Assembly (NCBI RefSeq): GCF_004027225.2
Contig: NC_044282.2
Span: forward strand, 52,825,593-52,889,592
Reading direction: 5' to 3'
Length of the DNA: 64,000 nt
From: Strigops habroptila
Lineage: Eukaryota > Chordata > Aves > Psittaciformes > Psittacidae
Shown here: positions 66 to 64,000 of the stretch, one piece after another
Numbering within the stretch: the first letter of the stretch is position 1
Layout: every line of letters starts with the position of its first letter
Program-made: the position numbers and the translations under genes
The notes under the pieces: model-generated
What the model was told of the DNA's origin: nothing
Database searches by the model: none
What the model saw: the letters and a program-made list of their open reading frames with translations, nothing else

Positions 66-32378
<32,313 letters not shown>

Positions 32379-33739: not shown

Positions 33740-35561
33740 AGAATAAAAATTTTAAAATACCACCCAAAAGATCAAATTTAGTTCTTTTCACAACAGTTCT
33801 CTACATTAGTCTGAAAGTTCTACTGCCCCAATAATTAAAACAATTTAATTACTCATTCCACATCTATATTTTAAGTCAAAATTTCAGTCAATAGGACATT
33901 CTGGTGTGTCCTATTTTAAAGATACCACATATGTCACTTTGGAGTTTTACCCATTGCTCACAAACACAAACTGAGACAAGATAATTGAACAGAGGAATTG
34001 AATGTAAATACTATCAGTTGTAATGTAAAATGGAGTTATGCACACTAATGCCTGAAACAAAGCCTGCCCAGCTGACAGCTTGCAAAACACATCTGGTCTT
34101 CAGGACAGTTTTCCACTATCATATAAAATTATACTTCTCATCTGACAACTGGCCTTAGTGTAAATGGGACTGATGTCATCCACTCCCAGTTGCCAAGAAG
34201 TTGAAAAGTCTTGCATTAGATTTACAACATGTTTATTCTTACCGATTACGGAGGCCAAGACACACTTCTGGCCTTCTAAATGCTTGTATAATACCCATGT
34301 CTAAGCAGAGGACATGAAAGTAAGCAAAGTGAATATAAAACCCCATGACTTACAGAAAAAATACACACAGCGCTTTGAGGAAGCAAGTGTAGCATAGCTA
34401 GCTTGTCCCATGCTAACTTTAATTGAACTACAGCAAATTAGTGTCAGTGGGGACACATCACAAAATAACAACCACAGACCAATCCAGCAGTCTTGGAGAG
34501 TTTATACTCTTATTTTTGTTCCATGTTCACCTGTGCTATTTAGTACTAATATCTATTATCCTAACATCACTGCATAGATACACCTGAAGTCCCACTCGTA
34601 TGTATGGTGAATGTGGCAAGTGAACTTCTGCCTGTTGATTTTCCTTGCAATTGTTTGTATCTATCATGTGCAGGGTATGAAGAAAGCACAGATGTCATTA
34701 TAATATGTCCTTGGCATACCAGCTACTGATGAAATATTTTGTGTAATAATTATATTGTAGATCTCTACAAAATACATTAGATTTTTCAATTCTTTAAGAA
34801 AATATATTATTAATAATCATAGTTTTGTCTCCATCTTCAAATATATTTAAATATAGTTTCTAAAGTATTTGGATGATTATAAATGCCGAGTGTACAAAAT
34901 GAGTGAATTCCTTTAACGATTAAATTTTTTAATTGTTAGCTTGCGTGTTTTATTCTACAAGCCCAATTGACACAAGTAGTCTCAGTACTTGACTTCTCAA
35001 TCTTGTCCATGGAACAAGAACAGAAATAACTGACTAATAACATAAGTAAATCTTGCAGGATGAAAAACTAAAATTTGGAGGATGCCTTTATCCTTCTGAG
35101 TGTTAAACAACATTATTAATACTTGAAAATACTATAAAACCTTTTATCTATATTAACAAGGACTTGCAGGTTTTAAAATCAAATTATTATTTTCCCAACT
35201 ATGTGACTTGGGCGTAGTGCACTGTTTAATTCTGTCAGTATCTTCCATTTATGCCTCCTTTATCTTTGAGGGTTTGTTTCCCTGTTTTTGGTAAACCTTT
35301 TATTTCATAACACACATAATTTTTCAGTTGTATATACAAAACATTCCAACATCAGCGTGCATAACATAATTTATTTTGTTAAAATACATTACAAGACCCC
35401 AACTTACTTTCTCATTTAATGGATAGAAGACATGGACACATTATTTACTCTGCCTTGCTATTTCACAGTTTTATACAATGTCATATACTGTATCCATTCT
35501 TTTTTTTTCTTTTTTTCTGTATTTACTTTTAAACAAGATAATAAAAATGCAGTTATTGCAG

Positions 35562-35810: not shown

Positions 35811-35866
35811 TCAGACAACCTGCTGCCTGCCTTGATATGCCTCCAGCTTCTCAGACACTTCATCTA
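35811..35866 (-). CDS. MATN3: MATN3 exon 8, end of coiled coil and stop
   Basis: With the split Leu, it codes [18 protein letters not shown] and stops at TGA. The acceptor ends in AC (CTGACCAC) and is preceded by CCCTTAACC, a U12 branch site about 11 nt away. The heptad pattern (L-xxx-V-xx-L) continues exon 7. The tail after KLEAY differs from human (which ends NEYGQIHR), so the last ten residues are less certain by homology, but the frame and splice signals agree. Confidence 0.87.
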
Positions 35867-38800
35867 GTGGTCAGTGGTTAAGGGCAAAAAATTCAATGTC
35901 TACAAGTTTTGTTTTATCTATAAACTTTCTCATTGCTACATTTTCAACAAACAGTCTGTTTTCTAGATGAGGTCAATACATGCATGAACCAGAGATTTCA
36001 AAACATTTTAGAGATGTGCCAAGGTCTGGCAACTTCCCAAATGATCTCAACAACCCTAATTTCTTAGAAGGAGTTGGACCAAGTGACATTCAGAGCTGAA
36101 GAGCAGCAGGTGGCTGTCTCTGCTGCTTTTTCCATGTTGCCTTGAAAGGATGCCAGGGATACAAATTGCCCACCAAAGAATAACTTTGGAAGAAAGCCTC
36201 AGTTATTTGTAATAAAGTATATTCCTAACTTGAAACCACTGCATTTTATTCCTTATCTCTTGGGAAGAAAGACTGATCTCTGAAGGACGCGATACTATTG
36301 AGATGATGTTACAGGTTTCATTATCTTGGTATTCAGTTTTAACTACCTGGATTCCATGGAATTATATATTACAATCCAAGGAAAATCAGCATCTTCCCTT
36401 CACTTTTTCCAGACAGATAAACTGAACTCCAATCACACTGCAAGCAGAGGGATTTGCAATCAGATCTTACAAAAATAACTGAATTTATTCAAGCACTGGG
36501 GAAGTCTTGTGTCGTTGGCAGAAGTTTTCATTTGGCTTTCAGAAACTTTGGCGACCTGAGAAATTAGTTTATCTGTATAAATGAGTTCACATATAAAACT
36601 TACTAGTTTGCTCTCCTTCTTTGATTAATCCTAAATACTCCACTCTTCCTTGATTTTGAAGGCACAGGGATCAGGATGACAACCACAGGCGTAGTGCTCA
36701 TCTAAGTCAATTCCTATTTGAACAAGAGCACCTTTTACAGGAAAAAAGCATGCAGTCTCAAAAATTTCCAGTGATGGAAATCTACTACAATCCTTGGCAA
36801 ATTGTAACAGTGATCAACCACTGTCACATCTAAAAATTGTGCCTTATGATGAACCACAGTTTGCCCAGCTTTAACTTCCAGTTACTAGTTCCTGCTGTGC
36901 CATCTGAGGGCATTTATTATAGCATTCAGGTTTGCTGTGGTTCAGAGTTCACTACTTTCACTTTTTTGTTTGTTTTTTCCTCTCCCAGATGTTTGTAAAA
37001 TGTCTAATCTGGGGGCTGACCGCATTTCACTGCCACAGGCGCCTCACTGCAGCAAATGAAGCCAGCAAATTCCAGCGCAGCGCAACTCACACCCAACAGC
37101 CGGTACCTTGGGTGAATCATGGAGCCAAGGTTTGCCTCCAACCTCATCACCCTGCCTCCCAGCTCTCCCATTCTCCTATATCCCAGCAGCTATATATTCA
37201 TAGGCTAGCACATTTTCATGGGAAAGAAGAAGGTCCATGAAAATTGGTTGGGACAATGCCTGCCTGCAGAGGTGGGATGAAGAGGAATACTGCAGCTAAT
37301 GGGACTGTGTTAACCCTGCATGTGAAGTTGTCTTGAAAATTTTGGGACATAATAGGAGGGCTCAAAACTGAGCATTTGCTATAACAGTAAAAGTTGTCTG
37401 GAAGAATTATGAATAAAGCAGTGCTTGATGTTCAACATAGCATATATAACCTAGGGGACGTGGGCATATATATTTTATTTGTATCTTGGTACTAAAGCCC
37501 TTCAATGAAGTGTAAAAACATTCTGGTATTTGAAACAACCAGGATTTTGCTCCATAACGTTTCTAAAATCAGCATGAAAACACTTTCTGTTTTAAGGGAT
37601 GTTCCTTCCATGGCTTATATCAAAACAGCTACCTCTAAAATACCATTCTTCTGAATGCAGAAGATCATGTAAGAAAAAGGATATATTTTGTAGACAGAGC
37701 TTCAAGGCGTGAGGTGACCGAGTCCTGTAGGGCAGCTATGGCTTCACACTTACAGGACTCTTCAGTAGTTACGAGACTGCTCACTGTGGCTCCTAAGAGA
37801 GAAAACAGCATTTAGAATATTTATGACAATTATCAAACACTTAAATCCCAGGAAAACGCTTGATTCTGCAACAGGAGTTGACCTCATGCTGTGAGACTAT
37901 AGCAAGCACTGAAACCCAGGGCAGTCGGGAAGAAGGGATAGCAGTGAGTGATGGCTGGTGTGTAGTCAGAGACACAAATTCCACTAGACCAGGTTGCTCA
38001 AAGCCCCTGGCCTTGAACACTGCCAGAGATGGGGCAGCCACAGCTTCTCTGGACAACCTGTGCGAGTGCCTCACCACCCTCGCAGTAAACAATTTCTTAC
38101 TTATATCTAAATGTATCTAAAGAGAAACTAAATCTATCTATACAAAAATCAAGGTTGCTGCCCTGTCAGAGCTGGATTGTAATGGCATTTGGAGTACCCA
38201 TCACTGCCAAACACAGCACTTCTGAGAATGCATTAGTCCAAAATTAAGCCTCTAGGAGTTTTGCAAGCCAAGCAGGAAGGCACGTAGATTTTAACCTCAA
38301 AAAGAGTCAGTCAGTGTCAGAGATTCATCAGTTTCCATCAGTTTCTGATATGTAGATGGAATTTAGATACTGAAATCTCAGCTTGGAAAGAAATCAGAAG
38401 AATTTAATTTACCACTGGTAAATACTACAAAAATGAAAGCAGGAACACATGTATTCATTTAAAATACTAAGCAATAGAGATTCAGCTAGATTATCAATGT
38501 GTATCACCCCACAAGTAGTCTTGGTTTGTAATGTTGACAATATACATGCATAGGGAGTATAATTTTTGATTCGAGAGGTGTGAACAGTCCAATGTCGCAT
38601 GAATATGGATAGAGGGAACAACCCCTTCAAACAGGCCCAAATTAGTTTAAAATCTAGTAAAAAGGCACAGCAATATTAATGGAGGAGCCAGCTAGTATGG
38701 CAGAGAAGTCATTAGCCTCCTAAGAAAGAGAAAGCAAGCACTGCCCCACTCCACAGTGGTTCTGTTGAACCCGTTCCTAGGTCTTGCCCTCTGTCTTCCA

Positions 38801-41800
38801 GACTTACGGGGGACCAGCCTCAGCTGTCCTGAAGAATTCCTTTTTCTCCATAATCCACCACAAGACCAGGGATGATCACAAAGGGCTCAGAGACGATAAT
38901 TTCATTGTGGTATGATGTCAGACATCTGCTGATGACTGTGAGTTCTTAGCTACATGAAAGGCAATTTAACCTTACCTACTCTATAAGGAAAATAGGTGTT
39001 AAGCTGCACCACTTGCTGCAGGCTTATAACAAACATATCAGCAGCCACGGAAGCACAAGTACTGTAGTGAGATTACCATCTACATCTGAGACCAGAATAA
39101 TAAGTTTCCAAAGGTAGAGCCTTCTTAAAAGAGGGCCCACAAGTATGAAATACCTGTTTAACAAGTTATCAAGAGGTCTTACTTGCATGTAAAATCTGTC
39201 TCTTTATACATGGGGTTTTTTTACATTGCCTCCAAAGGCAACAACAGCAGATTATTCAGTTATTTTTTCTGTAAGTTTATAAATGCATAGCTGATAAATG
39301 CCAAACAAATAATGTGAGCATTATAACAGTAAAACAATAGAAATATTATACCTGGATACAACTTCTCACCTTTTTTTTTTTCTTTTTCTGAATTTTGGGG
39401 GTTTCTTTTTTTGTTTCTCAACCATGCCATTGATACTTCCATTTTGCAGGGAAACTGCAAAATCTATGAACAGATTCATTTCTAGCAGTGGAGAAATCAA
39501 TTTGTCTTAGAGCCCATATTGAAACTGGTGTCTCCTTGATTCCACTGAACCGGTATTTGTTCAGCTCCCTTCTTTGGAATGTTTCACAGGCTTTATGGTT
39601 AATGTACAAAGAAGAGCTGTTCAGGAGTCAGCTGGAGGAAGGCCAGTTCAAAATATCACACCAACATGGTTGGTTTCCAACCAGCTACCAGGGTTTTTTT
39701 ATGTTTGCAATTAAATTCTCCAACGACAGATCCAGATCCAGATTGTCCTTGGATTATGTCTGTTTTAACGAAATTACTTTTCCAGCCAACCTTGGCAAAT
39801 GCCCAAGGGTACCCTGAAGTCTTCTACAGTCCTTCTGTGAAATGTAGAGTCTTCCAGTATTTGATATTCAAAATCTTGGACAGACCTGTTGCCACTGGGA
39901 TGCCCAGCAAGTCATACAGAACATGCTAGAGTTGCGTTTTTATACTGCATTTATGTTTAAGTCCAGACCTATTAAAAATTACTATATTTGCAGATGGTGT
40001 TCGGCTATATACACCTATTTTATAACTTTGCTCTTACATGGGGTTCTTAGCCACTTGGTGTAATGGCAAGTTATTCCTGCTCTGAACCAGAAATTGTACT
40101 AGGTACCTCTTGAGGTCCCTTCCAGTCTGACTATGATTCTGAATTAAATGGTGGAGAGATTCTGGCAATAGTTGATGCCAGTATTGCCCATCTGAAGGAA
40201 AAACAGTGCATTCATGCCTGCCCCACTCATCTTGGAGGAGTGGACAAGAAGATATGGTTTGGCACTGCAGTTCTTCTGACACCAGTTCTGTTCGTCTGTG
40301 CCTCCCCACCATCCTCCAAGTGCTGGTACACGATTGAGACAGATGCCCCAGAGCCTTGCTTTGCCAATCCCCCCAGGTATTCCCATTTCATAAGAAACTG
40401 CAGATTATAACAGATTATACATTTTTTTTAAATACAGTGAAGTCCTTAAAAGTATGGTGATAAGTAAGAGTCAACTGTAGTTTTAAATACAATAACTGCT
40501 ATACAAGAAGGATCAAATTAGCTTGATACATTAGTGGAAACAAGTAGAAAAGAATGAGAAGGGGTTATACTTTCAGGGAGTTTGTGAGTTGACAGAATGC
40601 TTCTTAAGCAGATTAAAAGGCTTTGATACATTAAAGAGAGGTACTTCAGTAAATATATTCAGGGGGAAAAAAACACAACAAAAACAAACAAACCCAGAAC
40701 ATTAAATTATTAATTGAGCATGTTTTCTCATCTGGATTTAAGGTAAAGCCTTCATATCAGTCACAGGTACATGATCCACCATTACTCACACAGACCTGCT
40801 CACAGTCATGGGTTCCTGGTGCAGACACATCGGTTCCTACAGAATGCATTTTGGAGAAGCGGTTACCCAAAAACAGGATGATAGCTTTTTAATGCTTCCC
40901 AATGGCAATGGTTTTCCATGTGGGAGCCTATCCTACATGAATCTTACTGGGAACTACTGAGATGTGTAACTGATCTTGCCCTGGAGCAGTGAGATGAACT
41001 AATTGCCTTACTGGGGTCTTCCTCAGCCCTTGCTTTGTACAGTCTGTGCTCACTCGGACTGCAGCTGGCTGGCGTCACGAGATGTGAAGTGCCAGGTCAC
41101 CTCCAAAGGCATGCTAGGAAAAGTTTCCAGTACGCAGTAACTTTAGTCAGGAGACCAGGAAGGAAAGAAACCTTCTAAAATGATTGCATATTTACTATGA
41201 CACAAAGTCCCTGGGAAGCTAAAGAAACAAATGGCAACATGAATTCAGTTGAGAGGGGAGGACATCACATCAAACTGTCTCCTGCGTGGTGGTACACAGA
41301 TTCACAGTACTGCAAAGTGTTTTACTGTGCGACTAACCCCAATTCTTCTCTCTTTAATTATGTCTCAGTTCTGGGCTTGCTGAATATTGCATAATATTTT
41401 TTTACATATAGTGAAGGCCTTAGTTGTAAGATGATAAAGACCAAATGGTAAGCAGTTACTAGCATTGTTGCCTATAAAGTGCTTTGCATCTCTGAACGTT
41501 GCTCAAAGTGGTAAAGGCAGAGTGACACAGAACTGTCTTATAACATGTGAATGCATGTGAAAGTTTCTAAACAGATCCAAACCTTCTAATGAGAGCTACT
41601 TCAATATATGTACTGAGCTGGGGAGGGTGTGGGGCATATGGAACAGCAATCTGCTCTTACTTGAGCACGTCTTCTTGTCTGGGTTCAGGGTGTAGCCTTG
41701 GTAACAGTCACAGGTATAGGACAGATCGTCTCTCACACAGACCTGATCACAGTCATGCCTTCCGGGTTCACACATGTCCACAGCTGAGGAAGGCACATGA

Positions 41801-44800
41801 GAATAGAAGAATATTAATCAATACCCAAATCTTCAGATTTTTAAATTGGTGTTAGTAATTCCATTTTGCAAGCATATATTCATTTGGAATCAAACCAGGA
41901 TGTTTTTATTGCACGTCAGCACGCTATTAGCCATAGCAGGGAAAACAAAGAGCGTTTTCATCTGGCAATCAGCATCATAAAATTAATACAATTTTTGGAA
42001 TATTGGCAACACTGTTTTGGAGTTATAACAGATTGCAAAAGGAACTGAATTAGCAGTGATCCAGTTGCAAAATAATTATCCAGAGGAATTTCAGAGAACA
42101 AATAACTGGATTTTAAGAAATTATTTGGCATGATTTCAGCTCTAATTGGGTTGTATAAGACGCTGTTTTACAGAGTGAAAACACTGTAAACAGAAGAGTA
42201 TACATGGCTGTTGAAAAAAAGAGACATGGTACCCGCTGCCAGTTACAAAGTGGGCACCTTATGTGTGAGGCTGATAATTTCTGCCAAATTTAACACGTCA
42301 ACTCCGAAAGGGCAAGTTGAGAGGGAGTTCCTATATTTGGATATCTTTGCAGTAAGGAGGTCCAGTAAGGCACAAGGAAAGAAAGAATGATGGAAAGAAA
42401 GAACGAAGGGAAAGAAAAATTAAAAAAGGAAAAGTCAAGACCCCTCCTGGACCTAGACTATTTTTGTTGCATCACAAACACCTGTATTGTTGAGAAACAC
42501 TTGGATAATTTACCAGAGAAATAAGAGAAATTAACCTGGCTTTTAAGAGCTACTTGCTTTTAGCTGAACACAATATTTCCTTAATCAGGTCTCACCTGAG
42601 CAAGTCTTCTTGTCTGCATTCAGAGTGTATCCTTCATAGCAGTCACAGCTGTAGGATCCATCATTATTCAAACAGACCTGTGCACAATCATGCCTTCCAG
42701 GTGCACACATGTCCATGGCTGTGGTGAACCATGTTTTAGAAAAGAAACTTATTTATCTCTCCCAGACACCCAAGCATTTTAAATGCTTCAACATTTATAA
42801 ATACACTTTAATTAGGATTCAAATTACGATTCAGCCAGCACCCTACTACATTATTATATTATGCTGCAGACAACTAAATTCAGTTACTAATTGTTTAATG
42901 GAGGAGGCAGATACCAGGACTGCAAGACATTACTACACCACATCTCACGCAAGTCTGATTTTCATGAGCAATTATAACAGTGCTGAATATGCCCAGTAAG
43001 GATGAAGCTAAAACACCATACTGAGATGAGCAATAACCTGCTGTGTGCCAAGGCAGAAGTTGTTTCTTGCAATATTAGCAGTAACTATGGTGAGTCCAAA
43101 TATAACTTCATACTTTTTGTCCATGAGCTGAAGACAGACACAAAAAGCCAGGCAAGGTATGTAGAAATGCTATTAAATGGCAGAGAGATAAAAACCCTAG
43201 TGAGAAAAAAAACAAACACACAAATAAGCAGGAGCATTAGAAGATTATGTTCTGTCTTCAGAAACAAGAAGAGTGAAAACTTTAGTGAGAAGAATGCTTA
43301 TGTGCTCTCAAAGGGAGAGATGCACTTACCAGTTATACAATAGCTACCCTAAGGCTGGTGCTGCTCAGAACTTGTGGATTAAAAGAAACAACAAAGAGAA
43401 GTATTTGGAGGAAAAGAAGTTTTTATAATAGGCTATTTTTTCAGGGTGCCAATTCAAGGAGTAGGAAAGGAAGAAGCTGCTGCCGGTGTAAGACTGGGGT
43501 TGCCGTATAGCAGAGCCCAGCACAGCTTTGGGAGCAGAAGCAGCAAGCTGTAAAACCCCCTGAGTTTTACAGGGGAGAGATGGAGAGCACAGGAAAGATG
43601 GAGAGCACATGGGAAGATTATCAGGCTTTAAATTCTCTATGGGCAAATGGCACTAACTCTCCAGTGGAGACCCATTGCTGCAGGGCATCTCCAAGTAGGT
43701 TCATTCTCTCACAGGGGCTAAGTTTATGAAGTACTGTGAAGACCATGAAATGGTAGGTGAGTGCCACATTGCATTTTTTTAATCAATGCATTGAAAGAAA
43801 AATACAATGCTATTGTTATTGGAACCAAGGGGAAAAGCTCCAGGTGAATTTTTGTTTTAAGAGTTGATGTCTGTAAGCAATTTTTCAACTAGAAAAAATC
43901 AATATAACTCACAGAAAACATGACCATGTCTCCATGAGTTTCATGTATTAAAGTAGCCTTTAATTCCTACCTGAGCAAGTCTTCTTATCTGAATTCAGGG
44001 TGTAGCCTTCATAGCAGTCACAGACATAGGATCCATTGTTTCTCACACAGATCTGATCACATTCATGCCTTCCAGGTGCACACATGTCCACAGCTGTAAA
44101 ACACACATTAAAAAAAACAAGTCATTGTTAATAAAAAGTAGTTTGAGATGGAGTGCATCTTCACATTTTTTGATATATTTTGATTTGGAATCAGCTCAGA
44201 AATGGCAGTAGTAATTGAAAGAATTAGAATAACTGGTAGGAGAAAGTATCTATACTGTGTCTACATCTGAAGTCTTTGTTTTGGCATCCTAATGAATGGA
44301 TCTGTAGGCATAATAAAAAGGATGGTGATGGAATCAAACTATTTCTCACCATTACTTGCAGCAAAGTTTTATTTATTATTGAAGATACAGATGGTCACTG
44401 TTTCAACAGAAATACACAAGTAGCTTCTCAAATCCATTATGGTGTTAAAAAGTGATATTTTTCTAGTTGAGCATATTTACCAAAGGAGTAATACCTGAGC
44501 AGGTTCTCTTATCTGGATTCAGAGCGTAGCCGCCATAGCAATCACAAAGGTAGGATCCGCTGTTACTCACACAGACCTGCTCACAGTCATGGGCCCCAAG
44601 AGCACACACATTTGCAGCTAAAGGGTATTTACAGAAAAGGAATTTCAGTCATCCCAGAGGAGAGGAACAGTCATTAATAATTTATGCTTACAAAAGTACA
44701 TCTTGCACTGTTTGCTGGATTAGTAGCAGTAAATGTCAGCGCTGTGTCACTGTCACACAAAGTTACAGGCATCTTTTGCATCATTCTGTAGCCAGAAGAA

Positions 44801-47800: not shown

Positions 47801-50613
47801 AAAAAGGTCCACTGAAATCAGGTCTGTTACTTGCATGGTAAGGTCACCACTCAAAATTAAAGGTCATTACTTGGCCTTCACTGAATGAAAGGGTTGGCTT
47901 GTTTGTTCAATGGATGGCAAAGGGAATATTTAGATGTCACACATAACACTTCTGAAAAAGAAACACTGCTTTCTTAGAGAGTAGGACCACAGTAGAAGCC
48001 AGAAGGAGCCAAATTACACTGCCCTCTTGGACTGACCACCTTACCACAGAAAGTCTCTCTGAATTGGGATGTCAGCTTTTCGATCACACCATAGGTCTCC
48101 ACATAGAAGACATGTTCATCCAGTGGTTCACTGGCCATTATCCTCAGGGACTGCATGTCTGCCCGGTCTACCCCCACTGCGTAGATCTCAATGCCAGCTG
48201 TCCGGGCGCTTGCTGCCACATCTTGAACCTGGTCTTGTGGCCGTCCATCTGTCACAACAATGACCACCTTGGGGATATTGAAGGTTGCTGGCCGGGTGCC
48301 CATTTCCTCCGTGAAGACTTCATCCATGGCAGTTTGGATGGCAAGGCCGGTCATTGTGCCAGCAGACAAGGGCTCAATGTGCGATATAGCCTCTTTCATT
48401 GATGCTTTATCAAAGTAGGTCCGGAGGGGGAACTCTACCTTGACAGTGCTGGCATAATTCATGACTGCCACACGGGTTGTTCTTTCACCAACATCCAGAG
48501 TATCAATCATTTTTGATAAGAAAATTTTCACTTTCTCAAACTCTTCAGGTCGGACACTGCGGGAGCTGTCTACGATGAAGACGAGGTCGAGGGGCCGGTT
48601 CTTGCAGGCAGAGTCTGTCGAGAGGGAAGGGAAACACTTCAGTCATCTCCCACACAGGATCAGAGCTCTCACCCTTGGGCAGTGAAAGCCATCATGGCAA
48701 ACTGTTCCTATCAGATAAATGTTGGCACCCTTCATTCTTTCCAAAGAAGCTTAAAATTATAGTGAGCGATGCATTAGAAATTCTTAAATGTTAATTTTGG
48801 CAAGTAATCAGTAATAGAATTTTTCTAAGCACTGACTGATAGGTTCACATTTCAGCCCACAAAATGTCTAACTACCCTTGAAACAAAGGGTTGTAGTTCA
48901 TATGTAATAGCCAATGCAGAAATTTAGCAATCATATATTAATGTACTTACTTTTTATTTTCATAAAGCCTGAATTCCATTTTTATAAGTTACAGAAATAA
49001 AATGGTAAAACAACAGGCTAGATTACATAGTGAACAGATCCTAATAATATAGATTGCTGATTAGGAATTATTTGGTTTTTGTAATTCACAATCGAAAGTA
49101 CACAAGAAGAAGAAATAAAGGCCAACAGGAAAAAGATGCAAATGGTGCTGCGATAAGGGCTTCTTTAGAAGTTGTTACTGTTCTAAGGATTCTAGAGCAG
49201 AGAAGAAAATTAAATTACTTATGAAGTAATTTTACATGTAAAAACAAACATTTACACACAGATTTCTAGCTTCCAAATTTCCTCGTTGACATATAAATCT
49301 ATACAGATTTATACAGATATAGAAACAGAAAAGCCATAGCTCAGATTAGAGACAAGCATCACTTCTAGGAAGACAAAAAATAACCAAGACAGCAACAGCA
49401 GGCAGCAAAGCAAAGCTTGTGTGCTCCATCCTGACATCCTGACCTGACACTGACAATGCCATGTACTTGCTTTGTACCATCAGGGTGTGGATTTGTGCAG
49501 CTGGTTTGGGAAAAACAGACAACCCAAAAGCAGAGTATTTCAGTAAAAGCGAGGTTCCAGCTCAACAGCGCATTAAATAACAACATATAAGGTGTTCGGT
49601 TTGCATACGCTCCCTGAGAGCTGTTTTGGGAACCCGACACACCTCTCCAAGCTACTTTTATTATTGCATTCCAGTTAAAAAATAAAAATAAAAATCTTTA
49701 CAAGTCTCTAAAAAGTATGGGTGAAAACAGCACTTCTTTTTCTTCCAATGCATTAAAACCCCTTTTTTCTCTTGTGCAAGCGAAAAAGGAAAGAAAGAAA
49801 TCAAATTGCGCAGGTAGAGCTTACTTCCATCAGGAAACACAGCAGCAGAGTTAATTTTGCCTTTGGACAGAGTAATGGACTGGATGAATCTAGGATCCCC
49901 TCCAGGTGTATTACAGACAATTCTACATGCATTCCACAACTCAGTTTTTTGCATAATGATTTAGAAGAATGGCTTTGTGCCCTCTGGGAAGCTGAGAAAA
50001 CATGAAGAAATGTTTGTACATGCACATGTATCTTAAGACATGGAAGAAAAAGACTCACAACACTTGTCCTACAAAAAAAAGACCAAATGCAAGGTTTGTA
50101 GGCAGAAAAATTCTACTTTCTAGATTAAGGGGAAAAAAACCCCAAACCTTTTCAGTAGCCTGATCCCTCCGTGAGTCTGAAATAAAGACGTTTCAAGAAA
50201 TGAATCCAGGTAGGGAAGAGCTATGTCGGGTTTAAAGATTAGCAAGGCCAGTTTTGCACAAGAGAAAGTAGTTAGCACTTGTCGCTGCAAGCGAGCGGTT
50301 CCCGGACCGCTGCAGCTACCCCGAGTTGTCCCCCGGGCGTAGCTTCCCGGCTTAGCACGTAAGGAGCAGGGAACATAAGCAGCGCGGGCTGCACCGGAGC
50401 GGCTGGAGAGCGGCGAGCGCAGCGAGGAGCGAGGGAGGGAACGAGCGGGGGATCGTCCCCGGCCGGCCCGGTACCTGCGGTGCCGAGGCCCCCGGAGCGG
50501 CTCCCGTCCGGGCGCGGATGCCGGCGAAGGCGGTGCGGGGAGCCCCGCGCCGCGGGCAGCAGCAGCGGCAGCAGCGCCAGGCAGCAGCCGAGGATGCCGA
50601 GCGCCCGCCGCAT
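35811..50613 (-). CDS. MATN3: MATN3, matrilin-3, complete in 8 coding exons
   Basis: Matrilin-3 is a secreted cartilage matrix protein that oligomerises by a coiled coil and links collagen and proteoglycan networks (family knowledge; human mutations cause multiple epiphyseal dysplasia). The eight exons join to 1,365 nt, 454 residues plus stop. They encode a signal peptide (residues 1 to about 23), one vWA domain (about 56-235) with MIDAS residues DSSRS and TDGRPQD, four EGF-like repeats of 41 residues (237-400), and a C-terminal coiled coil preceded by CKCE cysteines (about 412-454). Human MATN3 has 486 residues; the difference lies mostly in a shorter N-terminal linker and slightly shorter EGF exons. 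Six introns are GT-AG and mostly phase 1; the last is AT-AC (U12). It lies between WDR35 and LAPTM4A, as in human. Confidence 0.96.
35867..37684 (-). other. MATN3 intron 7, U12-type AT-AC intron
   Basis: 1,818 bp. It begins ATATCCTTTTTC, fitting the minor-spliceosome donor ATATCCTT, and ends CCAC with the branch-site-like CCCTTAACC just upstream. No GT-AG alternative joins the two coiled-coil halves in frame. Matrilin genes are known for an AT-AC intron at this place. No mobile element was recognised inside it. Confidence 0.88.
37685..37792 (-). CDS. MATN3: MATN3 exon 7, hinge and first half of coiled coil
   Basis: Codons 401-436: [36 protein letters not shown]. The paired cysteines CKC, expected to link subunits, are followed by heptads. 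The acceptor is TTTTCTCTCTTAG. There is no GT donor; the exon instead ends at ACAAAAT followed by ATATCCTTTTTC, a U12 AT-AC donor. 108 nt, phase 1-1. Confidence 0.92.
37978..38115 (-). mobile_element. CR1 LINE fragment, minus orientation
   Basis: The minus strand reads the end of the RT ORF and the start of the 3' UTR: GTGCCTCACCACCCTCGCAG and GGGGCAGCCACAGCTTCTCT on the plus strand, with CCACTAGACCAGGTTGCTC. The terminal tail is missing, so both ends are truncated. Confidence 0.83.
40057..40140 (+). mobile_element. Degenerate CR1 tail fragment
   Basis: Only the last part is clear (CTTGAGGTCCCTTCCAGTCTG, then CTATGATTCTGAA). It is an old CR1 copy in plus orientation, and its 5' boundary is uncertain. 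Confidence 0.55.
40714..40836 (-). pseudogene. Dead fifth EGF exon of MATN3 (pseudo-exon)
   Basis: A stretch of exactly 123 nt on the minus strand still aligns end to end with the four live EGF exons: acceptor CTGTAG, then [20 protein letters not shown], then SCTCD, stop, [14 protein letters not shown]. It cannot be used: the first cysteine is Ser, a cysteine codon has become TGA (40,757-40,759), Tyr before the fourth cysteine is lost, and the donor GT is gone (TCAA followed by TTAAT). It is closest to repeat 1, sharing the ACTCACACAGACCTGCTCAC stretch. Human MATN3 also has four EGF repeats. Confidence 0.88.
41661..41783 (-). CDS. MATN3: MATN3 exon 6, EGF-like repeat 4
   Basis: 41 codons (360-400): [39 protein letters not shown]. 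Six cysteines, phase 1-1, donor GTAAGA. The last base is A instead of the G of the other EGF exons, so the join to exon 7 makes Arg. Confidence 0.96.
41784..42595. other. MATN3 intron 5
   Basis: 812 bp between EGF repeats 3 and 4. It has a purine-rich GAAA/GGAA stretch near 42,372-42,420. Nothing else was recognised. Confidence 0.8.
42596..42718 (-). CDS. MATN3: MATN3 exon 5, EGF-like repeat 3
   Basis: 41 codons (319-359): [39 protein letters not shown]. Six cysteines, phase 1-1, donor GTGAGA. Confidence 0.96.
42719..43970. other. MATN3 intron 4
   Basis: 1.25 kb between EGF repeats 2 and 3. No further EGF remnant, repeat or conserved ORF was recognised. Confidence 0.8.
43971..44093 (-). CDS. 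MATN3: MATN3 exon 4, EGF-like repeat 2
   Basis: 41 codons (278-318): [39 protein letters not shown]. Six cysteines, phase 1-1, donor GTAGGA. The DNA of its first third is nearly the same as in repeats 3 and 4, a sign of tandem exon duplication. Confidence 0.96.
44094..44494. other. MATN3 intron 3
   Basis: 401 bp AT-rich intron between EGF repeats 1 and 2. Nothing was recognised in it. Confidence 0.8.
44495..44617 (-). CDS. MATN3: MATN3 exon 3, EGF-like repeat 1
   Basis: 41 codons (237-277): [38 protein letters not shown]. All six EGF cysteines are present in the C-x6-C-x3-C-x8-C-x-C-x12-C pattern. 123 nt, phase 1-1. Confidence 0.96.
44618..48044. other. MATN3 intron 2
   Basis: 3.4 kb between the vWA exon and EGF repeat 1. 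It holds the AAAAT repeat at 45,136-45,211. No CR1 or EGF-like remnant was recognised. Confidence 0.8.
45136..45211. repeat. (AAAAT)n pentanucleotide microsatellite
   Basis: About 75 bp of TAAAA/AAAAT units, interrupted once by TATACTATAC near 45,154-45,164, then nine perfect units. It lies in MATN3 intron 2 and is likely polymorphic in length. Confidence 0.95.
48045..48614 (-). CDS. MATN3: MATN3 exon 2, vWA domain
   Basis: Codons 47-236, the entire von Willebrand factor A domain: [20 protein letters not shown] with the DxSxS metal site at 62-66, then [45 protein letters not shown] and [14 protein letters not shown], ending ETFC. 570 nt, phase 1-1, donor GTAAGG. Cysteines at the two ends (CKN and TFC) can close the domain by a disulfide. 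Confidence 0.97.
48615..50474. other. MATN3 intron 1
   Basis: 1.86 kb, with its upstream end inside the CpG island. No repeat family was recognised. Intronic enhancers of cartilage expression could be here, but none can be named from sequence. Confidence 0.75.

Positions 50614-53775: not shown

Positions 53776-64000
<10,225 letters not shown>

Follow-up and report, generated by a model that had tools for sequence, protein, structure and literature searches.

Intron 7 of the matrilin-3 gene (MATN3), on the minus strand of the 64-kb window (the whole stretch of DNA analysed here), is almost certainly an AT-AC intron of the U12 type that was already present in the ancestor of all four matrilin genes. 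This intron is already known and is not new. Titles in reference lists show that it was in print by 2000: the first, by Wagener et al. 2000 (reference list of PMC2427018), names a U12-type AT-AC intron in mouse Matn3; the second, by Muratoglu et al. 2000, an AT-AC intron conserved in matrilin genes. A passage of PMC6865273 reports minor introns for each of the four matrilin genes. Going by its title, the mouse intron of Wagener et al. is of the same gene and the same class as the one described here from a bird gene, and the matrilin-gene intron of Muratoglu et al. and of the passage in PMC6865273 is like in kind, with lengths of 157-2373 nt in the present genome. Table 2 of PMC7367187 gives 18% of chicken U12-type introns as AT-AC, which makes the class an uncommon but well-documented one. 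Our additions are three in-frame acceptors 3 nt apart and a GTAAGT within exon 7, the latter in MATN3 alone among the four matrilins; otherwise the published work is confirmed.

MATN3 is complete in the window, with eight coding exons that join into 454 codons plus a stop (Table 1). All seven introns are in phase 1, and introns 1-6 have GT-AG ends. The joined protein contains one VWA domain, four EGF-like stretches, and a Matrilin_ccoil domain (Pfam; 54.4 bits when the full-length protein is searched), and this combination of one VWA domain, four EGF-like domains, and a matrilin coiled coil identifies the gene as matrilin-3. Two AATAAA hexamers on the minus strand, at 35375 and 35304, lie 436 and 507 nt past the stop and are possible poly(A) signals.

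Table 1. MATN3 exons, intron 7, and its splice signals, by position in the window
Feature	Position	Strand	Basis
Exon 1, coding part	50475..50613	-	ATG to GT donor, phase 1; signal peptide by inspection
Exon 2, VWA domain	48045..48614	-	GT-AG; Pfam VWA E 7.5e-53
Exon 3, EGF 1	44495..44617	-	Exon joining and Pfam
Exon 4, EGF 2	43971..44093	-	Exon joining and Pfam
Exon 5, EGF 3	42596..42718	-	Exon joining and Pfam
Exon 6, EGF 4	41661..41783	-	Exon joining and Pfam
Exon 7, opening part of the coiled coil (CKC to LSTK)	37685..37792	-	Matrilin_ccoil profile 2-30 of 45 on read-through
GTAAGT within exon 7, candidate cryptic donor of U2 type	37748..37753	-	Motif scan
Intron 7, U12-type AT-AC, 1818 nt, phase 1	35867..37684	-	Sequence, motifs, paralogues
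U12 5' splice site ATATCCTTT (then TTC)	37676..37684	-	Sole exact copy in window; same site in 4/4 matrilin loci
U12 branch-site-like GCCCTTAAC	35877..35885	-	7/9 vs. TTCCTTAAC; putative branch A at 35878
3' splice site AC, preferred	35867..35868	-	Top Matrilin_ccoil score among three in-frame acceptors
Alternative in-frame AC acceptor, adds one Ser	35870..35871	-	Frame and Matrilin_ccoil score
Alternative in-frame AG acceptor, LD becomes Y	35864..35865	-	Frame and Matrilin_ccoil score
Exon 8, coding part: coiled-coil end and stop	35811..35866	-	Frame, Pfam, 1AQ5 alignment

The original prediction placed an AT-AC intron at 37684-35867, and these coordinates proved exact: exon 7 ends with TCTACAAAAT at 37685, the intron opens with ATATCCTTTTTC at 37684 and closes with TTTTTTGCCCTTAACCACTGACCAC at 35867, and exon 8 opens with TAGATGAAGTG at 35866. 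The codon across the junction, T/TA, encodes leucine. Donor and branch site were scored by consensus matching, and consensus sequences of the U12 kind for both are given in PMC2846911. The donor had been assigned to the minor spliceosome, and it matches RTATCCTTT at 9/9 positions, with C at +5 and +6, vs. 3-5 of 9 for the donors of introns 1-6; the U12 donor motif ATATCCTT(T) is likewise present at 9/9. The description of the intron as textbook holds for this donor but is too strong for the branch site, GCCCTTAAC, which agrees with TTCCTTAAC at 7/9 positions. The expected spacing, about 1.8 kb to the branch site and then about 11 nt to an AC end, agrees with an intron of 1818 nt that has 11 nt between the branch A and its end, the tail reading CCCTTAAC-N8-AC and the AC at 35868-35867 giving the best fit. 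The further statement that exon 7 has no GT donor is correct between the end of the exon and the read-through stop, where no GT occurs, but a GTAAGT lies inside the exon, at 37753.

The AT-AC ends of an intron do not by themselves settle its class, as U2-type AT-AC introns also exist (PMC2831892), and removal of intron 7 by the major (U2) spliceosome was therefore considered. In sodium channel genes, the U2-type AT-AC introns described in that source all have G at +5, whereas the C at +5 and +6 of ATATCCTTT argues against such an intron in MATN3. The whole of ATATCCTTT conforms to the U12 consensus, and CCTTAAC places its A 11 nt from the intron end, leaving splicing by the major machinery exceedingly improbable.

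The motifs themselves occur about as often as chance allows in 64 kb. ATATCCTTT has one exact copy on both strands of the window, vs. 0.86 expected by chance, and the GT form of the donor, GTATCCTTT, has three exact copies. CCTTAAC-N5-14-AC has three matches vs. 4.48 expected, two of which are the two AC acceptors of MATN3 intron 7. One pairing of donor, branch site, and AC was found in the window, vs. a mean of 0.995 in shuffled sequences, of which 115 of 200 contained one or more. At this chance level the motifs alone prove nothing, and motif counts were ruled out as proof of a U12 intron. Such frequencies are also what a fortuitous resemblance would produce, with exon 7 ending elsewhere and exon 8 spurious. 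The case for intron 7 is carried instead by its placement at the break in the coiled coil, by the kept frame, and by the same layout in the other three loci.

The coiled coil is split by the intron, as had been proposed. On the coil peptide spliced at AC 35867, the Matrilin_ccoil profile scored 59.7 bits and matched from position 2 to 45 of 45, vs. 40.4 bits for the read-through peptide, whose match stops at position 30. After the AC, the sequence continues in frame to a TGA that ends at 35811, in line with the predicted last exon. The same prediction had the unspliced protein truncated at LSTK; its frame does stop early, but runs on for six more residues (YILFLT) before the stop. MATN3 is a clean check case for annotation, since a gene finder restricted to GT-AG introns would leave out the final part of the coiled coil.

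Four acceptors were tried, of which three, AC 35870, AC 35867, and AG 35864, are in frame and 3 nt apart. The flanking two scored lower with Matrilin_ccoil (56.0 bits for AC 35870 and 47.5 bits for AG 35864). The remaining candidate, AC 35875-35874, was rejected, as the frame then shifts and reads LTTR before a stop. We infer that the AC at 35867 is used and that branching takes place at 35878; AC 35870 and AG 35864 may give minor products.

The domain encoded jointly by exons 7 and 8 is the one represented by Pfam Matrilin_ccoil and by PDB 1AQ5, the coiled coil of cartilage matrix protein, which we take to be from chicken. With AC 35867, MATN3 aligns to 1AQ5 without a gap across the junction, albeit weakly (20.4 bits, E 0.0042). 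1AQ5 was second of the 10 matches listed for the MATN3 coil, behind a spike-protein chain (E 0.0018) whose match consists of several weak repeats. The two proteins differ at the C-terminus, where MATN3 ends in YQGRQQVV and 1AQ5 has LENKII.

MATN1, MATN2, and MATN4, proposed for comparison at the same position, were examined in the same genome (1,148,577,936 bases in 89 contigs). A Matrilin_ccoil search of it returned four places, the window and three others, and each match reaches just profile position 30 or 31. Within each of the four matrilin loci of about 3.1 kb, [AG]TATCCT occurs once on both strands taken together, always as ATATCCTTT and at the same codon, and all four loci found (4/4) have an AT-AC intron in phase 1 at that codon. 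The last exon was found in each of the three other loci: on C12 (MATN1; intron of 1406 nt; LEAVAKRIEALENKII), on C1 (probably MATN2; 2373 nt; LEEMTKRMEDLENRLKY), and on C13 (probably MATN4; 157 nt; IAQTTARLEDLEKQIAKKK). The locus on C12 is assigned to MATN1 because its joined peptide matches 1AQ5 at 40/43 residues, ungapped over the junction (identities counted by hand). The branch A is followed by 11 nt in C12, C1, and the window, and by 10 in C13 (the last by manual count).

A strict branch pattern missed the C13 acceptor because the branch site there reads TTCCTTAGC. A looser heptad scan gave three candidates (AC 347, AC 8888, and AG 338 of the turned locus), among which tblastn ranked AC 347 top, with a best E of 0.047. 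The acceptor chosen is a putative one, supported jointly by scan, frame, position, and branch motif. The resulting MATN4-like AT-AC intron (C13:11381954-11382110, minus strand), with its TTCCTTAGC branch site, has a G+C content of 60% over 157 nt.

The AT-AC intron is thus retained in every matrilin locus found in this bird genome, four in all. These paralogues bear directly on the idea that the signals in MATN3 are fortuitous: with exon 8 the coiled coil is complete and in frame, the layout recurs at the same codon in 4/4 loci, and the MATN1 product is identical to a known protein at 40/43 residues. Because of them, a chance resemblance is very unlikely indeed, with a probability close to nil. 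Judged from sequence, the four introns would share common descent and are probably spliced by the minor spliceosome.

The GTAAGT inside exon 7 is formed by the codons of the CKC motif, TGT AAG TGT, and allows a different reading of the junction, in which the major spliceosome joins it (from 37753) to AG 35864. The resulting protein would stay in frame but lose both the cysteines of CKC and the first half of the coil. By eye, CCT/GTAAGT resembles a strong donor, TTTTTTGCCCTTAACCACTGACCACTAG could serve as acceptor, and the join keeps the frame; yet it would cost the Matrilin_ccoil domain its conserved first half, and the 120 nt before the donor contain no GTRAGT in the other three of the four matrilin loci. 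We regard this reading as very improbable, and a U12-type AT-AC intron remains the preferred one. A further proposal, which we consider very unlikely, is that splicing of the MATN3 coil is adjustable in this lineage, with the tandem acceptors shifting the register by one residue and the GTAAGT form arising when minor splicing is limiting. If this were true, minor-spliceosome activity would set matrilin-3 assembly.

Removal of intron 7 as a U12-type intron would begin with recognition of ATATCCTTT by U11 and of CCCTTAAC by U12. U4atac/U6atac would then act, and the minor spliceosome would remove the intron, joining codon base T to TA to give a leucine midway along the trimeric coiled coil of matrilin-3. 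The genome contains RNAs of the minor spliceosome: U6atac has four matches above the gathering score (the top one of 130.6 bits), U12 one (147.9 bits), and U11 one (106.1 bits). Rfam at the gathering threshold gave no match in the 64-kb window. The 5' end of the U11 found in the genome reads AAAAAGGG, with which the MATN3 donor TCCTTTTT can form seven Watson-Crick pairs and one U-G pair by inspection, exceeding by two the pairing of CCTTTGG or CCTTTCG in the other three matrilin loci. Computed U12 and U6atac duplex energies gave no distinction between MATN3 and shuffled sequences, of which 567 and 463 of 1000 were as low, and little for the other three loci (28 to 179 of 1000). These energies are uninformative, as the search for the best duplexes was not confined to the register in which the RNAs are known to pair.

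According to a passage of PMC1464127, LAPTM4A, MATN3, and WDR35 all belong to the neighbourhood of syndecan-1 that is conserved in human, mouse, and chicken. In the window, the WDR35 side of MATN3 is clear: all three frames tested (653-1030, 19249-19668, and 26860-27252, minus strand) matched WDR35 propeller models, and frame 19249-19668 also matched chain A of PDB 8fgw, which is WDR35 (E 5.2e-37). The first exon of WDR35 may lie near 32.3 kb, in a frame that contains MFIYLCKKV. The exon at 56789-56977 (minus strand) gave a weak match to Pfam Mtp (16.9 bits, E 0.005, cut-off 25.2), and we presume from its resemblance that it belongs to LAPTM4A. Between two WDR35 exons, at 6118-8871 on the plus strand, lie pieces of a retrotransposon reverse transcriptase, presumably CR1-like, with an RVT_1 match of E 6.5e-34 for a piece of frame 7472-8404 (plus strand).
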